Source: Lysobacterales bacterium (GTDB lineage: Bacteria > Pseudomonadota > Gammaproteobacteria > Xanthomonadales > SZUA-36). Taken from it: a stretch of 64,000 bases of DNA. The stretch is taken from NCBI GenBank assembly GCA_029859645.1, contig JAOUCS010000006.1, positions 1 to 64,000 of the forward strand, written 5' to 3'. Below, piece after piece: positions 3-44,174 of the stretch. Made by a program: the position numbers and the translations under genes. The notes below the pieces were generated by a model. The model was not told the DNA's origin. It made no database searches and was given only the letters and a program-made list of their open reading frames with translations. Numbering within the stretch: position 1 is the first letter of the stretch; every line of letters begins with the position of its first letter.

Positions 3-422
3 CTGCCTGGCCTGGTGCCGGTGCTCGGTTTCGACCAGCAGCAAATGTACTGGCTGATTATTGGGGCTTACGTCGGCGGCCGGTTGGTGGAAGGCGTTTT
101 TCCATTACTGGGAGACTGCGGCCTGTTTACCTGGCGGCCATTCGATGCCTGGTTTCGACTGGTCACAGCGCGCCGTAATCCCTGCCTGATCATCCTGACC
201 CTGGCGGCGCTGGCCGGCCGCCCGGACTGGGGTTTCATCGCCGTGACTTTCTGGTCCGTGCTGACCACCGGGGTTCTGGCTCTGCGCCTGTTGCAGGGTG
301 TTTTTTCGAGACTTCGCAGTGGTCCGCTGCATTCCTGGCTGAGCGCGGCAGATGTCGCAACCGGACCCCACCGGGGTGCATTCAGGGTGTTCGGCAGCAC
401 CCGGGGCGCATATGGAGCCTAG
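3..422 (+). CDS. Probable CDP-alcohol phosphatidyltransferase family membrane protein, C-terminal part (5' end outside window)
   Basis: The reading frame is open from the left edge of the window, so only about the last 139 residues are visible. They contain two or three hydrophobic stretches (WLIIGAYVGG, NPCLIILTLAALAG and a segment around FWSVLTTGVLALRLL) separated by a basic stretch with RPFDAW and ARRNP. I recall this layout from the C-terminal half of CDP-alcohol phosphatidyltransferases, which join a head group to a CDP-activated lipid in the inner membrane. The diagnostic DG...AR...D motif would lie upstream and is not visible, so the assignment is tentative. The stop codon overlaps the start of the next gene, a CDP-diacylglycerol-synthase-like protein, which suits a shared lipid role. 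Confidence 0.45.
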   Translation: MPGLVPVLGFDQQQMYWLIIGAYVGGRLVEGVFPLLGDCGLFTWRPFDAWFRLVTARRNPCLIILTLAALAGRPDWGFIAVTFWSVLTTGVLALRLLQGVFSRLRSGPLHSWLSAADVATGPHRGAFRVFGSTRGAYGA

Positions 423-1368
423 TCCCCAGCCGCCATTACGCACCCTGCAGCAGATCGTTCGTGGCCAGGTCTCGGGTACCTGTGATTTTCCGGACCAGCA
501 AAGAGACCGTCTGCTGAACCAGGTTCGCGAACGCTACGGTGACGGGCTGCAGGCGGTCCTGATCTATGGGTCTTATTTACGCGGCAAGCGCGACACACTG
601 CTTGATTTTTACGTCTTGCTGGACAGTTATCGCTCGATGCCGAGTACCTGGCAAGGGTGGCTATGCCGGGCGCTGCCGCCCAATGTTTACCAGATCTTCG
701 ATGGGGTGCCTCCGGACGAAATCCGGGCCAAGTATGCCTTACTGACCCTGGCCGGTTTCGAACGCGCCGTGTCGCGTGATTTTCATTCCTATTTCTGGGC
801 CCGGTTCGCTCAACCCTGCGGGATTCTGTACTGCAGGGACGACGCCGTCGAACAACGCGTCATCGAGGCGATCAGTGTCGCCTGCAGGACCTTTACCCGC
901 CGGGTCGTGCCTGCATTGCCTGACGGGTTCGACGCCCGCACCTTGTGGGCAGAAGGGCTGGCACGCACCTATCGCTGTGAATTCCGCTCTGAACCTCCGG
1001 GTCATGCAGAGCAGCTTTTTGAATACTGGCCGGATTACTACCGTGAGGTCACGGCATCCATCGCCACCGGCGGGGTTGACTACGAGCCTTCAGGCGGCGA
1101 TGACTGGTACCTCAACAAGGCGCCTGGCGGGAAGCGCCGATGGTCACCGGCAGGCTGGTGGCTGCGACGCCTGCAGGGCAAGGTTCTGTCGACGCTGCGG
1201 ATCATCAAGGCGGCCCTGACCTTCGATGGCGCGCTGGATTACCTGTTGTGGAAAATCAAGCGGCATTCCGGTGTCTACATCGAGCCTACCGCGCTGCAAC
1301 GCAGGGCGCCGTTGGTTTTCGCCTGGCCGCTGCTGTTTCGTCTGTGGCGGAAAGGAGCATTCCGATGA
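412..1368 (+). CDS. Tam41/Mmp37-like nucleotidyltransferase (possible CDP-diacylglycerol synthase)
   Basis: A 318-residue protein. ATG at 412 is chosen because it overlaps the previous stop; an in-frame start exists 60 bases upstream. Near residues 51-70 there is IYGSYLRGK followed by LLDFYVLLD. This fits the GS...D pattern of nucleotidyltransferases and resembles the Tam41 segment with YGS and LDF. Residues about 106-139 (AKYALLTLAGF, then YFWARFAQP) resemble the second conserved Tam41 block with KYG and GR-QKP. Tam41 makes CDP-diacylglycerol from phosphatidic acid and CTP at the mitochondrial inner membrane; bacterial relatives occur. Its neighbours are a probable CDP-alcohol phosphatidyltransferase and a flippase, both overlapping it, which supports phospholipid head-group synthesis. 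The assignment rests on motif resemblance only; another nucleotidyltransferase role is possible. Confidence 0.55.
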   Translation: MEPSPQPPLRTLQQIVRGQVSGTCDFPDQQRDRLLNQVRERYGDGLQAVLIYGSYLRGKRDTLLDFYVLLDSYRSMPSTWQGWLCRALPPNVYQIFDGVPPDEIRAKYALLTLAGFERAVSRDFHSYFWARFAQPCGILYCRDDAVEQRVIEAISVACRTFTRRVVPALPDGFDARTLWAEGLARTYRCEFRSEPPGHAEQLFEYWPDYYREVTASIATGGVDYEPSGGDDWYLNKAPGGKRRWSPAGWWLRRLQGKVLSTLRIIKAALTFDGALDYLLWKIKRHSGVYIEPTALQRRAPLVFAWPLLFRLWRKGAFR

Positions 1369-2666
1369 TTCCCGCAGGCAGCATGCTGCAACGTGTGCTG
1401 CGCAATTTCGGGGTGGTTATCCGTGGTCGTGCGTTGGCCGGCCTGTTTTCGGTGGCGGCGACCGGTCTGATGGCCAATGCGTTGCCGGCCGCCGAATTCG
1501 GCCTGATCGTGCTCGTACATACCTACGTGATGGTGATCCGCGGTGCGCTGAATTTCAGGACCTTCGAAGCGGTGGTCCGTTTTGGAATTCCGCTGAACGA
1601 ATCCGGCGACCGGGATCGATTCAGGTCGTTGCTGCGCTCCACCCTGCTGGTGGATTATTCCGCCGGGATTTTTGCAACGCTGGTCGCCATTGCCGCCGCC
1701 CCGCTGGCCAGTTCTTTGCTTCACTGGAGCCCCGAAACCGTTTACTGGGCAATGGGTTACAGCCTGGTGATCCTGGCCACCGCCAACGGCACGCCCAACG
1801 GTATTCTGCGCGTCTATGACCGTTTTGATGCGATCGGCGTCCAGTATGCGGTTGCCCCTGCGCTGCGCTTCTTGTCGATTGGGATCGCCTGGTGGCTGGA
1901 AGCGCCGATGGAAGTGTTCATGGTCGCCTGGGGTTCCGCCTTTGCCCTCGGACATGCCTACATGTCGGTACGCGGCTTCATTGAGTTGCGTCGGCACATC
2001 AAAACGCGGTTATGGTTGGGATTCAGCCGGACCGACCTGACGCGGCGGGAAAGCGAATTCTGGAAATTCGTCAGGGTGGTCTACTGGCAGACCAACATCG
2101 ACCTGTTACCCAAGCACGTCTCCGTGCTGCTGGCGGGCGCGATGCTGGGACCGGCGGCGGCAGGCCTGTTCCGGTTGGCGCGCGAGGTTTCAACGATCCT
2201 TGCCCAGCCGGCACTGGTGCTCAGGGAAGTACTGTTTCCGGACCTGACCCGCAGTGTTCACATGGACGACGGCAATATCCATTCTGTGCCTATCAAGACC
2301 GCAGTGGTCGCGGGTGTGGTCGGACTGCTTTTTGTCGCTCTTGCGGTCGTGTTCGGAGAGTCGCTGCTGGGGATCGTGGGCGATGAATACGTTGCCGCTG
2401 CTCCGTTGCTGAGCCTGCTGTTGCTGGCCGCTTCATTCGACCTGGCCAGCGCTTCACTGCGGGCGGCCGCTTACGCGATGGGACAGGCCGCGTCGATTCT
2501 GAACATACACGTGGTTGGCATCTTGACTTATATCGGCGCGTTTTTTGTGCTCACGCCGCCACTGGGATTAGTGGGCCCGGGTCTGGCAGCGGTGCTCGCC
2601 TCGTTATTGGCAATGGGCCTGACGGCCAGGCTGATCAGCAGGCTTTCTGCTCAGCCATCGGCCTGA
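1365..2666 (+). CDS. Polysaccharide/lipid flippase of the oligosaccharide flippase (MVF/Wzx-like) family
   Basis: A 433-residue polytopic membrane protein with about 12 to 14 hydrophobic segments, typical of Wzx/RfbX-like transporters that move lipid-linked sugars or lipids across the inner membrane. ATG at 1365 overlaps the upstream stop (ATGA) and has a good ribosome site (AAAGGAG, eight bases before it), so the much longer open frame beginning at 1140 is rejected as a start. It is the last gene of the plus-strand lipid operon. Its 3' end overlaps the 3' end of the convergent serine palmitoyltransferase gene by 16 bases. The substrate cannot be told from sequence. The context suggests a lipid or a lipid-linked glycan, possibly the product of one of the two facing operons. 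Confidence 0.75.
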   Translation: MIPAGSMLQRVLRNFGVVIRGRALAGLFSVAATGLMANALPAAEFGLIVLVHTYVMVIRGALNFRTFEAVVRFGIPLNESGDRDRFRSLLRSTLLVDYSAGIFATLVAIAAAPLASSLLHWSPETVYWAMGYSLVILATANGTPNGILRVYDRFDAIGVQYAVAPALRFLSIGIAWWLEAPMEVFMVAWGSAFALGHAYMSVRGFIELRRHIKTRLWLGFSRTDLTRRESEFWKFVRVVYWQTNIDLLPKHVSVLLAGAMLGPAAAGLFRLAREVSTILAQPALVLREVLFPDLTRSVHMDDGNIHSVPIKTAVVAGVVGLLFVALAVVFGESLLGIVGDEYVAAAPLLSLLLLAASFDLASASLRAAAYAMGQAASILNIHVVGILTYIGAFFVLTPPLGLVGPGLAAVLASLLAMGLTARLISRLSAQPSA

Positions 2667-3844
2667 AGCAAATGCTTGAGGCTGCCGAAAGCTTCGATGA
2701 TTTGTTCGACCTGTTCGCGGCTATGGGCAGCGCTGACGCTGCAGCGGATGTAGCTGTGCTGATCCGGTGACGCCGGCGGCACCATCAGGTTGGTGTAGAC
2801 GCCTTTCTCCAGTAACTGGTTCCAGAAGGGCAGGGCCGCTTCTTTTGCCCCCAGTTTGACCGCAACCACTGGACTGACCTCGGGGCCGGTTTCAAATCCC
2901 AGCTCGTTAAATCCCTGGTACAACCTGTCGGCGTTGCGCCAGAGCGTTTCACGCAGCTCAGGTCTGCCCTTCACCTGCTTCAGGGCCTCATGAGTACTGG
3001 CGATGATTGAAGGGCTGGACGAAGCAGTGAATATGAACGGACGGGACAGGTACCGCAGCAGGTCGAGTTCCGGGTGCCGGCTGACGCAAAAGCCACCCAT
3101 CGCGCCCAGGCTTTTACTGAAGGTGCCGACAAAAAAGTCTACCTGGTCCATCACTCCCTGCGCTTCTGCCACGCCGCAGCCGTTATCACCATAAACGCCC
3201 AGCGAATGGGCTTCATCCACCAGCAGCAGGGCGCCGTACTTTTCTTTCAGAGCCGCTATTTCCACCAGGGGCGCACAGTCTCCCATGACGCTGTACAGGC
3301 CCTCGGTAACGATCAGGCAGTCCTGCGCGCGCTCTCCGAGTCTCTGCAGGCGTTTTTCGAGGCTCTCGACATCGTTGTGTCTGAACCGGAAGATATCGGC
3401 GCCGCTCATCTGGCAGCCGTCGTATAAGCTGGCGTGGGCATCGGCATCCAGCAGCACCGCATCACCGGGGTTCAGCAGGGCCACCAGTGTCCCCAGGTTG
3501 GCCGCGTAGCCGGTCGAGAAAACCATGCCATGGCCGACCTTGAAAAAGTCAGCCAACTCCTGTTCGAGAGCCGCATGCGCCGAAAAACTTCCATTGGCCA
3601 TGCGGGAGCCCGTGGTGCCGGTGCCTTGAGACTCGATGGCGTTCCTGGCGGCAGCGACGCAGGCCGGGTCGAAGGTCAGCCCGAGATAATTGTTGGTCCC
3701 CGCGAGGATGGTGTTGCGGCCTTCGACAATACCCTCGGTCGGCGAAAGGATTTGCTCCATCACCACTGCGGTCGGGTCGTGTCCGCCGACGCTGAGCTGT
3801 TCGCGAATGGCCCTGGCCGATTCGAATTTGTCCAGTAAACCCAT
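2651..3844 (-). CDS. spt: Serine palmitoyltransferase (alpha-oxoamine synthase family)
   Basis: A 397-residue PLP enzyme that condenses serine with a fatty acyl thioester to give 3-oxo-sphinganine, the first step of sphingolipid synthesis. The pyridoxal lysine is K244 in TFSKSLGAMGGF, and the DEAH motif is at residues 210-213 followed by SLGVYG. The NNYLG, STGYAANLG and RPFIFTASSSPS segments agree better with soluble bacterial serine palmitoyltransferase (Sphingomonas type) than with BioF or Kbl, whose lysine loop differs. It is the last gene of a minus-strand operon with a dedicated acyl carrier protein, an SDR reductase and an acyl-AMP ligase, as in the Caulobacter ceramide cluster. BioF is the alternative, but no other biotin genes are nearby. 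Confidence 0.87.
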   Translation of the reverse strand: MGLLDKFESARAIREQLSVGGHDPTAVVMEQILSPTEGIVEGRNTILAGTNNYLGLTFDPACVAAARNAIESQGTGTTGSRMANGSFSAHAALEQELADFFKVGHGMVFSTGYAANLGTLVALLNPGDAVLLDADAHASLYDGCQMSGADIFRFRHNDVESLEKRLQRLGERAQDCLIVTEGLYSVMGDCAPLVEIAALKEKYGALLLVDEAHSLGVYGDNGCGVAEAQGVMDQVDFFVGTFSKSLGAMGGFCVSRHPELDLLRYLSRPFIFTASSSPSIIASTHEALKQVKGRPELRETLWRNADRLYQGFNELGFETGPEVSPVVAVKLGAKEAALPFWNQLLEKGVYTNLMVPPASPDQHSYIRCSVSAAHSREQVEQIIEAFGSLKHLLQADG

Positions 3845-3855
3845 ACGGCTATCCG

Positions 3856-4140
3856 TCAGCCAGACAGATCTTTGTCGACGATAACCGCCAGGTCGTGGAC
3901 GGTGTGAGTGTTGGACAGGCTGTTCATATCGATCATGACGTCAAAGGCTTCTTCCAGTTCCATCATGAATTCCATCACCTGGAACGAGTCCATTGTGAAG
4001 TCGGACACCAGGTTGGTTTCCCCGGTAATTTCACCATGTGCTTCCAGTTCCGGATGGTTGCTGGATTCCAGGTAGCTCGCCAGCAGAAGTTTGATGCGTT
4101 GCTCGATTTCATGGATGCGGGTGTTCACTGGGGTCTCCAT
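3856..4140 (-). CDS. acpR: Dedicated acyl carrier protein of the sphingolipid operon (AcpR-like)
   Basis: A 94-residue acyl carrier protein that probably carries the acyl chain delivered to serine palmitoyltransferase. The phosphopantetheine serine is S52 in MDSFQVMEF, a variant of the usual DSL motif, followed by an acidic helix II (MELEEAFD). The start at 4140 (METPVNT) is preferred; an upstream frame extends to 4197 but would overlap the epimerase gene and lacks family features. The gene lies 11 bases from spt and 13 from the reductase gene, clearly in one operon. It differs markedly from the housekeeping AcpP encoded at 43.9 kb, which argues for a specialised pathway rather than bulk fatty-acid synthesis. 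Confidence 0.82.
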   Translation of the reverse strand: METPVNTRIHEIEQRIKLLLASYLESSNHPELEAHGEITGETNLVSDFTMDSFQVMEFMMELEEAFDVMIDMNSLSNTHTVHDLAVIVDKDLSG

Positions 4141-4153
4141 TAAATATTTTCGG

Positions 4154-5077
4154 TCAATCCCCCGATTCCCGAAACAGCGAATCGACACCCTGTTCAAGGG
4201 TGATTTCAGGAGACCATCCGGTAGCCTGGTTCAGAGCCGTATTGTTGCACAGCCAGTCGGGTTGCGTTAATTCCCTGGCCTTGCCTGGGGTCATCATTGG
4301 AGCATAGCCCAGCAGGCGGGACAAGAAGAGATTTATGCTGCCCGCGCCAAACAGAATCCAGTGGGGAATATTCAGCCGGTAGTGGCGACCTTTTTTGCAA
4401 GCCTGGGCGATTTCTTCCCAGTTGTAGCCACCCTCATGCCCGTCATCCAGGGTGAAGGTCTTTCCGAGGCATTTTTCGGGCTGGTCCAACCAGGCCAGAA
4501 CAGCTGAGGCAACGTCCTGGACATGAATCAGCGAGAGTTTTTGATCAACCGGGCCGGGTGGTGCAATCAGTCCCTTTCGAGCCAGTTTCAGAATCGGCAG
4601 CATTTCCTTGTCGCCCGGCCCGTATACCGCGGGAGGCCTGAAAATAGTCCAGGGAAAAGTGGCATGGGCGATCACTTCCTGTTCGCCGAGGTGCTTGCTG
4701 TTGGCGTAATCCGAGACATGCGGCCGGCTGGCGGCCAGAGACGAAATCAGCAGCAAGGGGGTGTTATGGCCAGCCTGGTTGATGGCATCGACAACGGAAC
4801 GCACACCGTCGATGTTTGCCGGGCGGAAATCATCAAGGGTCCGCCCTCGCACTGAACCCGCGCAATAAATGACGGCGCGGGACTGCTTGATTGCGGAAAT
4901 CAGCTGCCGGCTGTCGCCAAGATCGCAGATCCGCTTTTCAACACCCGGTTCCAGTGCGTCTGGATGACCGGATGATGGTCTGACCACGGCTATCACGCCG
5001 GTTTCTGCGTTCAGCAGGCTGGTTTGAAGGTTGCGGCCAATGAAGCCCGTTGCGCCGGTGAGCAGAACGGGATTCAT
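4154..5077 (-). CDS. cerR: NAD(P)-dependent epimerase/reductase, CerR-like (ceramide pathway)
   Basis: A 307-residue extended short-chain dehydrogenase. The nucleotide-binding GATGFIG motif is at residues 8-14, the active-site serines are around 112-113 (ISSLAAS), and the YxxxK motif is Y124/K128 (YANSK). In Caulobacter the homologous position is held by CerR, which reduces the 3-oxo group of the sphingoid intermediate in ceramide synthesis. The C-terminal part carries a hydrophobic stretch (WILFGAGSINLFLS) that may help it sit at the membrane. The gene starts 12 bases after the stop of the acyl-AMP ligase gene. The assignment rests on fold motifs plus operon context; on sequence alone it would be a generic NAD-dependent epimerase. 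Confidence 0.72.
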   Translation of the reverse strand: MNPVLLTGATGFIGRNLQTSLLNAETGVIAVVRPSSGHPDALEPGVEKRICDLGDSRQLISAIKQSRAVIYCAGSVRGRTLDDFRPANIDGVRSVVDAINQAGHNTPLLLISSLAASRPHVSDYANSKHLGEQEVIAHATFPWTIFRPPAVYGPGDKEMLPILKLARKGLIAPPGPVDQKLSLIHVQDVASAVLAWLDQPEKCLGKTFTLDDGHEGGYNWEEIAQACKKGRHYRLNIPHWILFGAGSINLFLSRLLGYAPMMTPGKARELTQPDWLCNNTALNQATGWSPEITLEQGVDSLFRESGD

Positions 5078-5089
5078 GGGAATGCCGGG

Positions 5090-6898
5090 TCAGGCAGTCT
5101 TGCGATTGTTCCGCCGGTGACTGGGCAGACGCAGAGCCGGGGCAGGCTGCCTTTCAAGGTATGCTTCCCTGGACTGGAATCTTGACAGCTTGCCGGAAGA
5201 CGTCCGGGGCAGTGTGCCGGGTCGCACCAGGTCGATAATGACATTGATTCCGAAATGTTCATGCATCAACTCGGTGATGCCCTGGCTGAGGCGGTGACGC
5301 GCTGAGTTTTCGCGTTCCTTGGTTTCTACCACCATGACGGCCAGTTCTTCCTCGCCGAAGCCGGCGACCGAGAACGCCGCAACCCCGCCGAGTCGCACGC
5401 CTTCAACACGTTGTGCAACGACTTCCATATCATTGGGCCAGATATTTCGCCCCTTGATGATGATTACGTCTTTGCTCCGTGCGGTAATGAACAGGTTGTC
5501 GCCCACCCGGTAACCGATGTCACCGGTATCCAGCCAGCCGTCATCGCTGAGAACGGCGCGCGAACTTTCTTCATCACGAAAGTAACCGCTCATGACGCTG
5601 GGTCCTCTGAGCATGATCTCGCCACACTGGCGTTCACTCACTTCATTGCCCTGCTCATCGCGAATGCAGAATTCAAAACCGGGAAGGACCTGGCCGCAAT
5701 CAACATAGGCGGCCACGTTGTTGTGATCCGGGTTGACGGGTTTCGCCTCGCCGCTGCCGGACATCACTGCCTGGTCTACATAATCAACGGACAGGCCCAG
5801 GTCCAGCGGAGCGAAGCTTACCGCGAGGACACATTCCGCCATGCCATAGCAGGCGACGAAAGCGTTCGGATCGAAATTGCAGGGCGCCAATGCCTCGGCA
5901 AACGCACGCAACGGAATCGGGTTGACCTGCTCTGCACCGACACAAGCCGCCCGCCACGAACTCAGATCGTAACGTTCATAATCTGAAGGCCGCAGGCGCT
6001 TGGCGCACAGGGCATAGCCAAAGGTCGGGCTGGATGAAACGGTCCCGCGATTATCGGAAATGATTTTCAACCAGAGCCTGGGACGCATTGCGAAAGTCCT
6101 GGAAGGCAGGTAATCGGCCGATAACTGGCAGATCAGGGGCACCAGGATAAAACCGATCAGGCCCATGTCGTGGTAGTAGGGAAGCCAGGACACGAAGCGG
6201 TCTTCGTTGTTCAGTTTCAAACCGTCCTGGGCAATAGCCCGCAGGTTTTCGAGCACCGTTGCCTGATCAATTTCGACACCACGCGGAAAGCGCGTGCTGC
6301 CTGATGTATATTGCAGATAGGCTAGGTCCCCGGCCTGCACCGTCTGGAATTCAATGTCTGCCTCAGGCAGTGCATCAAATTCTTCTGGCGTACCCGCCAT
6401 CACGAGGTCCATATCGGCGACAGCCTCGTGCAGGAATTCGGTGTGCGACGCAGGTGCGACGGCAATCGCGGCGTCACAGCTTTCCAGCATGCGGCGAATT
6501 TGCCCGACATACGCGGTGTGCGCACCCATCTGAATGCCCGCCGGCAGGGCGAATGGAATCAGTCCTGCGTATTGGCAAGCAAAGAAAAAGCGGTGAAACA
6601 TGGGATCTGTTTCAGCAATAATGCCAACCCGGTCTCCATGCTTGAGTCCGAGCCCAAGCAGTCGCCTGGCCAGTGTCCGGGCTTCATCGCGCAATTGACG
6701 ATAGCTGAGCACCGCATCCAGTTGACCCCGGTGGTCGTAGAAATTGAAACCGGAATCTCCTGCAGCAGCATAATCGAGAGCCTCCGCCAGGTTAGCGAAA
6801 CCGTCGCTCTTAATTGGAAGCTTTTTGTTGACAGGCGTTGGCTGCATTGAGCTTTCTGTTTTAGTTTTCTGCCCGAAAGTAATTTTTGAATCCATCAT
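5090..6898 (-). CDS. aasR: Fatty acyl-AMP ligase / acyl-ACP synthetase of the sphingolipid operon (AasR-like)
   Basis: A 602-residue adenylate-forming enzyme predicted to activate a fatty acid as acyl-AMP and load it onto the neighbouring acyl carrier protein. The A3 loop is YTSGSTRFPRGVE near residues 197-209. The GWLDTGDIGY and KDVIIIKGRNIWPND motifs are typical of the fatty acyl-AMP ligase class, and the terminal PRTSSGKLSR carries the catalytic lysine. ATG at 6898 has AAAGG about six bases upstream; a TTG at 6901 and an ATG at 6847 are alternatives. First gene of the four-gene operon ending with spt. Such ligases also feed polyketide and NRPS systems, but none is present here. The Caulobacter counterpart is the acyl-ACP synthetase of ceramide synthesis. 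Confidence 0.8.
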   Translation of the reverse strand: MMDSKITFGQKTKTESSMQPTPVNKKLPIKSDGFANLAEALDYAAAGDSGFNFYDHRGQLDAVLSYRQLRDEARTLARRLLGLGLKHGDRVGIIAETDPMFHRFFFACQYAGLIPFALPAGIQMGAHTAYVGQIRRMLESCDAAIAVAPASHTEFLHEAVADMDLVMAGTPEEFDALPEADIEFQTVQAGDLAYLQYTSGSTRFPRGVEIDQATVLENLRAIAQDGLKLNNEDRFVSWLPYYHDMGLIGFILVPLICQLSADYLPSRTFAMRPRLWLKIISDNRGTVSSSPTFGYALCAKRLRPSDYERYDLSSWRAACVGAEQVNPIPLRAFAEALAPCNFDPNAFVACYGMAECVLAVSFAPLDLGLSVDYVDQAVMSGSGEAKPVNPDHNNVAAYVDCGQVLPGFEFCIRDEQGNEVSERQCGEIMLRGPSVMSGYFRDEESSRAVLSDDGWLDTGDIGYRVGDNLFITARSKDVIIIKGRNIWPNDMEVVAQRVEGVRLGGVAAFSVAGFGEEELAVMVVETKERENSARHRLSQGITELMHEHFGINVIIDLVRPGTLPRTSSGKLSRFQSREAYLERQPAPALRLPSHRRNNRKTA

Positions 6899-10259: not shown

Positions 10260-11594
10260 TCAGGCAAAGATACCATGCAAATACCAACCCCGGCGGGGCT
10301 TGTATTCGCGGAAAGCCCACAAGGTGCTGCCATGGTTGTCACGGACGATAAAGTAATCACGGCGGCAATCGCGGCCGTCCCACCAACCGCTCTCGATGCG
10401 CTCGGGTCCGGCCAGGATTTCGAAGTGTTCGATGCGGCAGGGTTTGGGGTTTGGCAGCAACCAGGGTGGGCGGTGAGCCAGGGGGATGCAATCCGGACGT
10501 TCATCCAGCGTGCGCGGGCGCCAGCTGTATTCCGGACGGTGATCCTGCACTCCGGTCAAGCCGCTGACGGCTTCGTTGCCCAGCCGGGCCTGCAGGCGCT
10601 CCGCCAGTTGCCGGATATCCTGCTGTTGTTCCGTCGGAGTATCCCGGAACAGGCTGTGCTGGCCCGCGTTGAACTTCAGCAAGGTGGCTGCTTCCAGGCG
10701 GATTTCGCGTACGGCCTGCGGCAGCTGCAAGCGCTCCATGCGTTCACGCAGTACGCTCAGCAGGCGGTCTGCGTCCTGGGTTGGAGACTGCAGGCCCAGG
10801 TTCAGCGAGGTCGATGGGTGATCCTCATACCCCAAATTGAGTTGCAGTGACTGTACCGCGTTGTCACCGCCGCGCAGCACGCCGCAAAGCTCTTCCAGCA
10901 GACGTTTCAACGGGAACAGCAATCCCTGGCAGCTGTGGATTTCTGCCGGCATTTCCAGCTGCGAAGAAAAAGTTTCGGGCGGATGATACATGGCCCGGGG
11001 ATCGGGACGGGTTCCCAGGATACGCTCGAGGTAGTCGGGCAAGGCGGGGCCGAAACGACGGGTCAGTGACTTACGTGGCAGGCGCAGCAGGTCGCGAAAC
11101 TGACGAAAACCCATCCGCTCCATCGACGTCCGCTGCGCCGCATCGAAGTGCAGGCGGTCCAGTGGTAACGGGCCCAGTTGCCGGCGTATATCAGCCGGTG
11201 AAGCGAGGTGCAAACCCTCAGGCGCCGCCAGCCAGGCAGCTTCGGGGGTTGGCGCCGAGCCGGCCAGGGCTTGATAACCCAAATCTCCGAGTTCCTGCCG
11301 CAGGCGTTGGCCCAACTGCTCTGTGCGGCCGAACAGGCGCTTGCTGGCCGCTGTTTCAAGAAACAGGCCATTGCGGCTGCTCGGCATGCAGACCTGGCTG
11401 CTGTACTGGTAACACCATGCGGCCAGGCGTTGCAGGGCCTGTCGCTCGGCCGCACCGTTGGATTCCGGCACGGACCAGTCTGCAGGCGGGAGGCTAGTGC
11501 TGCTTAGCCCGCGGCTGTGCAGGTCCCGCGACAGTTGCGGAAAACGAATGGCCAGCCAGCGTGGTGCTGATGGTATGTTCTGTGTAGCTTGCAT
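10260..11594 (-). CDS. imuB: Error-prone repair protein ImuB (inactive Y-family polymerase-like)
   Basis: About 444 residues. The N-terminus (WLAIRFPQL) aligns with the first strand of Y-family polymerases but lacks the catalytic aspartates found in DinB. It has the LPLDRLHFD, GFRQFRDLLRLP and RFGPALPDYLERILG segments seen in ImuB. ImuB is the hub that joins ImuA and the polymerase DnaE2 to the beta clamp during mutagenic lesion bypass. The start is uncertain: ATG at 11594 or 11624, neither with a clear ribosome site. The frame is open further upstream, but that part is the shadow of imuA. The gene overlaps the end of imuA by about 100 bases. No dnaE2 follows it, which is unusual for this cassette. 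Confidence 0.85.
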   Translation of the reverse strand: MQATQNIPSAPRWLAIRFPQLSRDLHSRGLSSTSLPPADWSVPESNGAAERQALQRLAAWCYQYSSQVCMPSSRNGLFLETAASKRLFGRTEQLGQRLRQELGDLGYQALAGSAPTPEAAWLAAPEGLHLASPADIRRQLGPLPLDRLHFDAAQRTSMERMGFRQFRDLLRLPRKSLTRRFGPALPDYLERILGTRPDPRAMYHPPETFSSQLEMPAEIHSCQGLLFPLKRLLEELCGVLRGGDNAVQSLQLNLGYEDHPSTSLNLGLQSPTQDADRLLSVLRERMERLQLPQAVREIRLEAATLLKFNAGQHSLFRDTPTEQQQDIRQLAERLQARLGNEAVSGLTGVQDHRPEYSWRPRTLDERPDCIPLAHRPPWLLPNPKPCRIEHFEILAGPERIESGWWDGRDCRRDYFIVRDNHGSTLWAFREYKPRRGWYLHGIFA

Positions 11595-12249
11595 GGGTTT
11601 GAGTGTGCCGCGGTTGTTTCCCATAAGCTGAGAAAAGTTGGGGGATCCAGACCGGTTCGGCGGGACGGCTTCCGCGGCATTTGAGGATGTTGATACGGAT
11701 GCCGCGATGATGATCCGCGCCCAGTTGCAGGCGCAGAGCAGCAGGGGAGGATTCCTTGCTGGCGCTTGCCGGCCGGAACAGGAAGGCCAGCTTCGCGCTG
11801 CTCTCGGCGGCGATCTGCAGGCGGCGCAGGCGGCTGAAGCTGATCTGTTCAGGCCAGGCCAGTACCGCACCACCCCGGCCGCTATGCAAGGCCTGTTCGC
11901 AGGCCCACAAGGTTTTTTTTCCGTTGCCTGTCCGCACCACCAGCAAGTGATCCAGCAATAAGCCATGTCCGTGCAGTGCGGCCGGGTAGGGTATCCATGG
12001 CGGATCCACCAGGATGACCCACTGACCCCGCTGACTGATTTCCGCCAGCGCAGGAAACAGTAGCCTCAATTCACCCATTCCGGGTTTCAGAGTCATCAGT
12101 TCGGTCAGCGCGCCCTGCGGCCAGCCATGGCCGGGCAATTGCCTGTCAAGGCGTGCATAGCCGGTGGGCAGGCTGCGCTGACTGCGGTTGTGCTGCCGGC
12201 CCCGCCATAACTGCGGCGTGTTGCGGAGCAGTTGGTTGATGGTGCTCAC
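11494..12249 (-). CDS. imuA: SOS-associated translesion synthesis protein ImuA (SulA/RecA-like)
   Basis: A 251-residue protein starting with GTG that overlaps the lexA stop (GTGA). Residues about 28-60 ([24 protein letters not shown], split here by eye) match the start of ImuA/RecA-like proteins where the ATPase core begins, although a full Walker A is not conserved. ImuA binds ImuB and is needed for damage-induced mutagenesis in organisms with the imuA-imuB-dnaE2 system. The C-terminal 40 residues (from about [10 protein letters not shown]) are low-complexity and overlap the imuB start, so the true functional end may be earlier. Expression is expected to be SOS-controlled through the LexA box upstream of lexA. 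Confidence 0.82.
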
Positions 12250-12878
12250 AGCGCCGGGCGGATGACCCCGACGCCCAGCCCCTCGATGGCGAGTTCCTGG
12301 TGCCGGAGATCTATTTCGATGGGATCGAAATCACGGTTTTCAGGAAGCAGCTGAACCCGGAAACCCTGCCTTTGAAAACGTTTGACGGTCACTTCGTCGT
12401 CCACCCGGGCCACCACGATCTGCCCATTGCGCGCTTCCGGGGTGCGATGCACGGCCAGCAGGTCGCCATCCAGGATGCCGGCATCCTGCATGCTGCTGCC
12501 TTCCACTCGTAACAGGTAGTGGGGTTTTTGCGGGAACAGTGACGGGTCTACACGATATTCGTCTTCGATGTTTTCCTGCGCTAGGACCGGGCTGCCGGCG
12601 GCTACACGGCCGACCAGCGGCAGTGGCGTGTTGGCGGACGCCGGCAATTCACCGGCAGCCAGCGGCAGCAGGCTGATGCCGCGGGCGGCGCCGCGCTCGA
12701 TACCGATCACGGATTTCTTTTCCAGGGCCCTCAGGTGGGCTTCTGCAGCGTTGGGTGAACGAAAACCAAAATGCGCAGATAGTTCAGCCCTGGTAGGAGG
12801 AAATTTATTTTTTTCAATAAATTGTGAGATAAACGTGAGAATCTCTCTCTGACGAATGGTGAGTTTCTTTTCAGGCAT
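12246..12878 (-). CDS. lexA: LexA repressor
   Basis: A 210-residue SOS repressor. The N-terminal winged helix ([11 protein letters not shown], then [15 protein letters not shown]) binds the SOS box. The self-cleavage site is A94-G95 in VAAGSP, the catalytic serine is S129 (GSSMQDAGI), and the lysine is K166 (VTVKRF). All residues for RecA-stimulated cleavage are present. Its start lies 20 bases from a near-consensus SOS box, so it autoregulates. It is transcribed first, followed by imuA and imuB, each overlapping the previous gene, so the whole lesion-bypass set rises together on DNA damage. Confidence 0.95.
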
Positions 12879-43940: not shown

Positions 43941-44174
43941 ATGAGCAGTATTGAAGATCGCGTCAAAAAGATTGTTATCGAACAACTTGGTGTCAAGGAA
44001 GACGAAGTTACGCCCAGTGCGTCATTCGTTGATGATCTTGGCGCAGACTCCCTGGATACCGTTGAACTGGTGATGGCGCTCGAAGAAGAATTCGAATGCG
44101 AAATCCCGGACGAAGAAGCGGAAAAAATCACCAGCGTTAAGCAGGCTATTGACTACGTTCAAGCCCACATCTGA
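43941..44174 (+). CDS. acpP: Acyl carrier protein AcpP (housekeeping)
   Basis: A 77-residue acyl carrier protein. The phosphopantetheine serine is S37 in [13 protein letters not shown], followed by an acidic helix. The N-terminus [18 protein letters not shown] matches gammaproteobacterial AcpP. AAAGAGGA lies upstream. It is the general carrier, in contrast to the divergent carrier of the sphingolipid operon at 3.9 kb. Confidence 0.97.

Follow-up and report, generated by a model that had tools for sequence, protein, structure and literature searches.

A predicted ceramide synthesis operon and its adjoining putative headgroup and export genes in a Lysobacterales genome

Four adjacent genes near one end of a contig from a Lysobacterales bacterium (GenBank JAOUCS010000006.1, of which the first 64,000 nucleotides, here called the window, were analyzed) raise the question of whether this gammaproteobacterium makes ceramide and, if so, what the lipid becomes. 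A preliminary description had read the genes as a ceramide synthesis operon in a class in which sphingolipids are uncommon. Gene identities were assigned by homology, phylogenetic analysis, co-occurrence, and synteny, and from these we infer enzyme activities, the headgroup, the transport route, and a kinase-free variant of the pathway.

The four-gene operon

Four intact open frames lie in tandem on the minus strand at 2651-6898, where the preliminary description had placed them, with profile matches above cut-offs. They are aasR (5090..6898), encoding a fatty acyl-AMP ligase/acyl-AcpR synthetase; cerR/epi (4154..5077), encoding an SDR reductase of 3-oxo-sphinganine or oxidised ceramide; acpR (3856..4140), encoding a dedicated acyl carrier protein; and spt (2651..3844), encoding serine palmitoyltransferase (SPT). 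This gene-by-gene assignment agrees with that of aasR, epi/cerR, acpR, and spt in PMC9386255. The genes are separated by gaps of 12 (aasR/cerR), 13 (cerR/acpR), and 11 bp (acpR/spt), and aasR has adjacent ATG codons at 6898 and 6895, the frame from the second being 5090-6895. Upstream, 265 bp lie between aasR and genes resembling those of a molybdate transporter. Promoter and terminator counts for the operon were no higher than those in shuffles, so the operon limits are set by spacing only. The same order of all four genes recurs in relatives and in other taxa, which excludes chance. No tRNA and no Rfam match was found in the window. Elsewhere in the window (10260-12878, minus strand), three adjoining genes resemble by eye a mutagenesis cassette of LexA, ImuA/SulA-like, and ImuB-like polymerase homologues, and no dnaE2 gene was seen adjoining them.

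A profile comparison and a tree had been proposed as the test of whether the 2651 gene encodes Spt, and both place it with the SPTs and rule out a Kbl or BioF identity. In the profile search, the protein reached 605.7 bits with NF047599, the curated model for SPT (cut-off, 500), and 338.6 bits with the bioF model (cut-off, 426), with the Kbl models likewise under their cut-offs, and it matched solved SPT structures with E values of 7e-124 to 6e-121. A maximum-likelihood tree was built from 19 SPT, five Kbl, and three BioF sequences; in every one of the 200 bootstrap trees (100%) a branch set each of the three families apart from the rest, and the window gene was among the SPTs. The true Kbl of the genome is a separate gene (TIGR01822, 675.9 bits). 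K244 of Spt, within TFSKS, aligns with K265, the pyridoxal phosphate (PLP) lysine in the solved Sphingomonas SPT, and K244, the stacking histidine H137, the Asp/His pair D210 and H213, and the conserved arginine R367 are invariant, corresponding to Sphingomonas K265, H159, D231, H234, and R390; D210 and H213 form part of the DEAH motif. The key residues were said to be intact, and this holds for TFSKS, DEAH, the DSF serine of the carrier, and YANSK of the reductase, but V355 stands at the position of Sphingomonas R378, where 18 of 19 aligned SPTs, the E. coli BL21 enzyme among them, have no arginine. Spt is predicted from its sequence to condense acyl-AcpR with serine.

The substrate choice of such synthases is not readable with certainty from sequence, and a cysteate acyltransferase (28eh) is homologous. 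Together with V355, these points would suit an operon that uses its specialised carrier to make another alpha-oxoamine or a related amino lipid (for example, one that is capnine-like or not derived from serine) instead of ceramide. This is highly improbable, since the SPT equivalog score is far above its cut-off and well over those of the Kbl and BioF models, the gene branches with the SPTs, and spt is strictly paired with the N-acyltransferase gene aca/bCerS, as described below. In addition, the BL21 SPT is also without that arginine, yet it yields 3-oxo-sphinganine (PMC9386255).

The other three products fit the ceramide assignment. AasR scored 728.7 bits against the fatty acyl-AMP ligase model NF006624 (cut-off, 600), its best solved relative is the fatty acyl-adenylate ligase 3pbk (E value, 2.6e-150), and it shares 44% identity with the ligase encoded at the spt locus of E. 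coli BL21. AcpR has a Pfam PP-binding domain (E value, 2.2e-7, above cut-off), with the phosphopantetheine serine in DSF aligned with those of AcpP and other AcpR proteins, and it scores below the curated cut-offs of all the NCBIfam acyl-carrier models listed, as expected for a specialised carrier. AcpR is encoded beside the fatty acyl-AMP ligase gene and is distinct from AcpP, the housekeeping carrier reported at 43.9 kb, which was indeed found as a separate gene at 43941-44174 within a fab cluster. CerR contains a Pfam NAD-epimerase (Epimerase) domain (E value, 4.7e-23, above cut-off), with 38% identity to the SDR encoded at the BL21 spt locus. Its Rossmann GxxGxxG motif is at residue 8 and its YxxxK motif (YANSK) is at residue 124, with no space for a signal peptide. 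All nine of the SDR/CerR homologues viewed start 8 to 12 residues from the Rossmann motif, where a signal peptide cannot fit. Caulobacter CerR was reported to be periplasmic (PMC11087976).

In the proposed route, AasR would load a free fatty acid onto AcpR with the use of ATP, Spt would join acyl-AcpR and L-serine into 3-oxo-sphinganine, aca/bCerS on an adjoining contig would add the second acyl chain, and CerR would reduce the keto group, at a point in the sequence that is disputed in the literature. Biochemical work demonstrated acylation of AcpR by AasR and a preference of SPTs, the E. coli B enzyme among them, for acyl-AcpR, and the SPT and AcpR of E. coli BL21 proved functional (PMC9386255). 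Acyl-AcpR formation and serine condensation thus have biochemical support in the literature, while N-acylation and keto reduction are supported by genetics. By homology, 2651-6898 appears to be a genuine bacterial ceramide-making operon of a type previously elucidated in Caulobacter and E. coli BL21, and the backbone is very probably made by that route. The term ceramide synthesis operon is apt for the backbone genes, but the operon covers only 3-oxo-sphinganine formation and reduction; its four genes are insufficient for ceramide on their own, the N-acyltransferase being encoded elsewhere.

The joined island and its convergent genes

The operon forms one side of a larger island whose gene content suggests that it probably also adds a phosphate headgroup and carries the finished lipid to the outer membrane. 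The preliminary description missed that the convergent genes at 3-2666 are part of the same system. The genome (G000) is a draft of 255 contigs with 95.7% completeness, and the island is split over two of them. The start of the window is a contig end, located inside a cpgA-like gene, and its first 145 bases match the last 145 bases of contig C32 (L077) with 2 mismatches. The joined island is about 16 kb long and is unbroken in relatives. Its order is aasR-cerR-acpR-spt, followed by the convergent genes for a flippase, a CpgC-like protein, a CpgA-like protein, a metallophosphoesterase, LptG and LptF paralogues, an LptA paralogue, a CpgD-like NTP transferase, a GMC oxidoreductase, a MobA-like NTP transferase, and aca/bCerS. 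These annotations were taken from the same genes in a relative (G004).

The gene at 1365..2666 (plus strand), encoding a Wzx-like membrane protein and candidate flippase, converges with spt, and their 3' ends overlap by 16 bp. The protein is 29% identical over 404 amino acids (aa) to a "lipopolysaccharide biosynthesis protein" of the E. coli BL21 spt island, and its gene adjoins spt in nearly all relatives. The next gene, at 412..1368 (plus strand), is cpgC-like (CC_1161 type) and shares 37% identity with the gene that occupies the position of CC_1161 in an alphaproteobacterial island. The cpgC-like gene of the window had no Pfam match, but a profile of 13 cpgC-like relatives matched the Tam41 CDP-diacylglycerol synthase 6ig2 (E value, 9e-4). 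An AlphaFold model built from the 13-sequence alignment had a pLDDT of 84.8 (36.9 from the single sequence), and it matched the bacterial Tam41 structure 7ecd with a VIA Z score of 18.8 over 228 residues at 3.2 Å, with the next non-Tam41 fold at a Z score of 9.3, and the structure 6ig4 with a Foldseek E value of 7e-10. The Tam41 fold of the model agrees with the CDP-DAG-synthase InterPro domain noted earlier in CC_1161 (PMC11324152). The product is a candidate CTP:ceramide-1-phosphate (or related phospholipid) cytidylyltransferase. A search for papers on CDP-ceramide in bacteria found none in the literature collection used.

The cpgA-like gene (CC_1159 type, CDP-alcohol phosphotransferase) is represented in the window by its 3' part (3..422, plus strand), truncated by the contig end. 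The fragment matches residues 265 to 397 of a 398-aa relative that has a Pfam CDP-OH_P_transf domain (E value, 8.8e-13). The relative in G004 of an NTP transferase on C32 resembles LicC and related enzymes, and the label CpgD-like denotes this family-level similarity and nothing further. CpgD makes CDP-glycerate (PMC12275187). The Tam41-type CpgC-like protein, the CpgA-like protein, the two NTP transferases (one CpgD-like), and the phosphoesterase would probably activate and attach a phosphate-containing headgroup, and the Wzx-like flippase, the second LptF/LptG pair, and the LptA paralogue may move the lipid to the outer membrane.

Three YghO homologues with 48% to 50% identity were found in G000, of which one is the aca/bCerS gene inside the island. 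The two others are on contigs C127 (L078:7937-9082) and C124 (L079:4897-6045). One of these extra loci is beside genes of fatty acid synthase type, for ketoacyl synthases, a FabA-like protein, an ACP, an SDR, an alcohol dehydrogenase, and a desaturase, and the other adjoins a fatty acid hydroxylase gene. They are possibly chain-modifying or second amide-lipid loci.

Distribution, co-occurrence, and the ceramide kinase

An SPT over the cut-off was found in 20 of the 368 other gammaproteobacterial genomes sampled and in 15 of the 37 genomes of the window's own family. The statement that sphingolipids are uncommon in the class therefore stands for the class at large but not for this family. The nearest relatives in a scan of named records were Lysobacterales metagenome-assembled genomes (MAGs). 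The same rhodobacterial type of SPT was also seen in records labelled Desulfobacterota, Nitrospirota, and others. In MAGs and genomes labelled as delta-type (Desulfobacterota) and Nitrospirota, at loci such as L213, L223, L224, L247, and L276, it is accompanied by an acp and, in several cases, by a ligase gene, which takes it beyond the alpha-, beta-, and gammaproteobacteria of the literature consulted. The patchy distribution in the family could suggest that the operon genes are a decayed or silent remnant, but every frame is intact, the catalytic residues are conserved, and the whole island is conserved across several genera, which makes such decay barely credible.

The island genes also occur together beyond this genome. 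An aca homologue was present in 15 of 16 spt-bearing genomes and in none of 7 without spt. Four LptF/LptG genes were found in each of 7 spt-bearing genomes and two in four genomes without spt, with none seen in a fifth, less complete spt-lacking genome. These pairings tie ceramide synthesis to the remaining island more firmly than position alone, and the island synteny is kept across several genera of the family and in other taxa. A second Lpt system was previously proposed to carry phosphosphingolipids to the outer membrane, by a route termed unknown (PMC11324152), and this proposal gains support from the comparison of related genomes, where the difference between carriers of the island and those lacking it is exactly one LptF/LptG pair.

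An anionic phospho-ceramide is the probable end product. Alternatively, ceramide might be made and remain neutral or carry a sugar, with the convergent genes serving an envelope polysaccharide. The flippase is Wzx-like, the NTP transferases are similar to sugar-1-phosphate nucleotidylyltransferases, and one spt-bearing relative (G015) is without the CpgC-like and GMC genes. Nevertheless, this alternative is unlikely, considering that the modelled CpgC-like protein has a Tam41-type lipid cytidylyltransferase fold, that a search for the cpgC-like gene detected it in 38 of 44 spt-bearing genomes but in 0 of 5 spt-lacking family members, and that Caulobacter needs its CpgC homologue to make phospho-ceramides (PMC11324152).

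In Caulobacter, CpgB lies beside CpgC (PMC10331486), and in other islands a lipid kinase with a GGDG motif adjoins CpgC. A profile of 14 GGDG-type island kinases, run on CpgC-bearing genomes, detected a CpgB-type kinase in 21 of 24 genomes outside the window's family of Lysobacterales MAGs and in 0 of 14 within it, a contrast (Fisher P = 7e-8) that is descriptive since the genomes share ancestry. No DAGK_cat protein at all was found in the 95.7% complete draft of G000. Generic DAGK-type kinases of the family were rejected as CpgB candidates, being about equally common with and without spt and absent from G000, and are thus unlinked to the island. Conversely, a GMC oxidoreductase scoring at least 940 bits was present in 12 of the 14 CpgC-bearing family genomes and in 0 of the 24 outside. 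Two MAGs recorded only as Gammaproteobacteria (L222 and L272) have the GMC gene and no kinase, as in the window's family, whereas in one labelled Gemmatimonadetes (L244) the kinase is present and the GMC gene is represented by no more than a distant relative.

Tam41-type enzymes require a phosphorylated lipid, so in the absence of the kinase ceramide-1-phosphate must come from a different kinase, or the pathway must differ. Without an island-borne ceramide kinase, the CPG/CPG2 pathway cannot operate in the exact form published for Caulobacter. A tentative and rather doubtful proposal is that the Lysobacterales family, along with a small number of gammaproteobacterial MAGs outside it, attaches the headgroup without a ceramide kinase step, with the CDP-alcohol phosphotransferase transferring the phospho-headgroup from a CDP-activated donor directly onto ceramide and the GMC oxidoreductase then modifying the headgroup or the chain, which would yield an undescribed sphingolipid. 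The retention of CpgC after loss of the kinase offers a natural test of the substrate of CpgC, and the kinase-free island is the part that deserves specialist attention.

Comparison with known ceramide loci

Neither the operon nor its occurrence in Gammaproteobacteria is new, because the order aasR-epi-acpR-spt has been published for Nitrosomonas eutropha (Neut_0458-0461) and E. coli BL21 (ECD_02851-02854) (PMC9386255). What is added is a gammaproteobacterial lineage with a full complement of predicted genes for ceramide, its headgroup, and its transport. N. eutropha, a betaproteobacterium, resembles the window's genome in this order and in having aca elsewhere in its genome (PMC9386255). In E. 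coli BL21, whose record was read and the four-gene order verified, aca (yghO, ECD_02850) is present and, unlike in the window, directly adjoins aasR. Identities to the BL21 locus are 52% for Spt and 34% over 58 aa for the carrier, in addition to those given above for the ligase and the SDR. Also in the BL21 cluster are an additional LptF/LptG pair and a homologue of the flippase at 1365-2666, and in the 30 kb of BL21 sequence covered, profiles of the island's other genes detected nothing similar to CpgC, CpgA, or the GMC oxidoreductase.

The Caulobacter comparison was based on a published gene list (PMC11324152) and on an alphaproteobacterial island of that order with homologues in matching places. 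Genes within CC_1168-CC_1152 are required for ceramide phosphoglycerate lipids (PMC11324152). This ceramide diphosphoglycerate region shares with the window's island the ceramide genes, flippase, CpgC, CpgA, phosphoesterase, NTP transferases, LptF2/LptG2, and aca. In contrast to Caulobacter, the window's family is without the CpgB ceramide kinase and has an LptA-like gene and, in most members, a GMC oxidoreductase.
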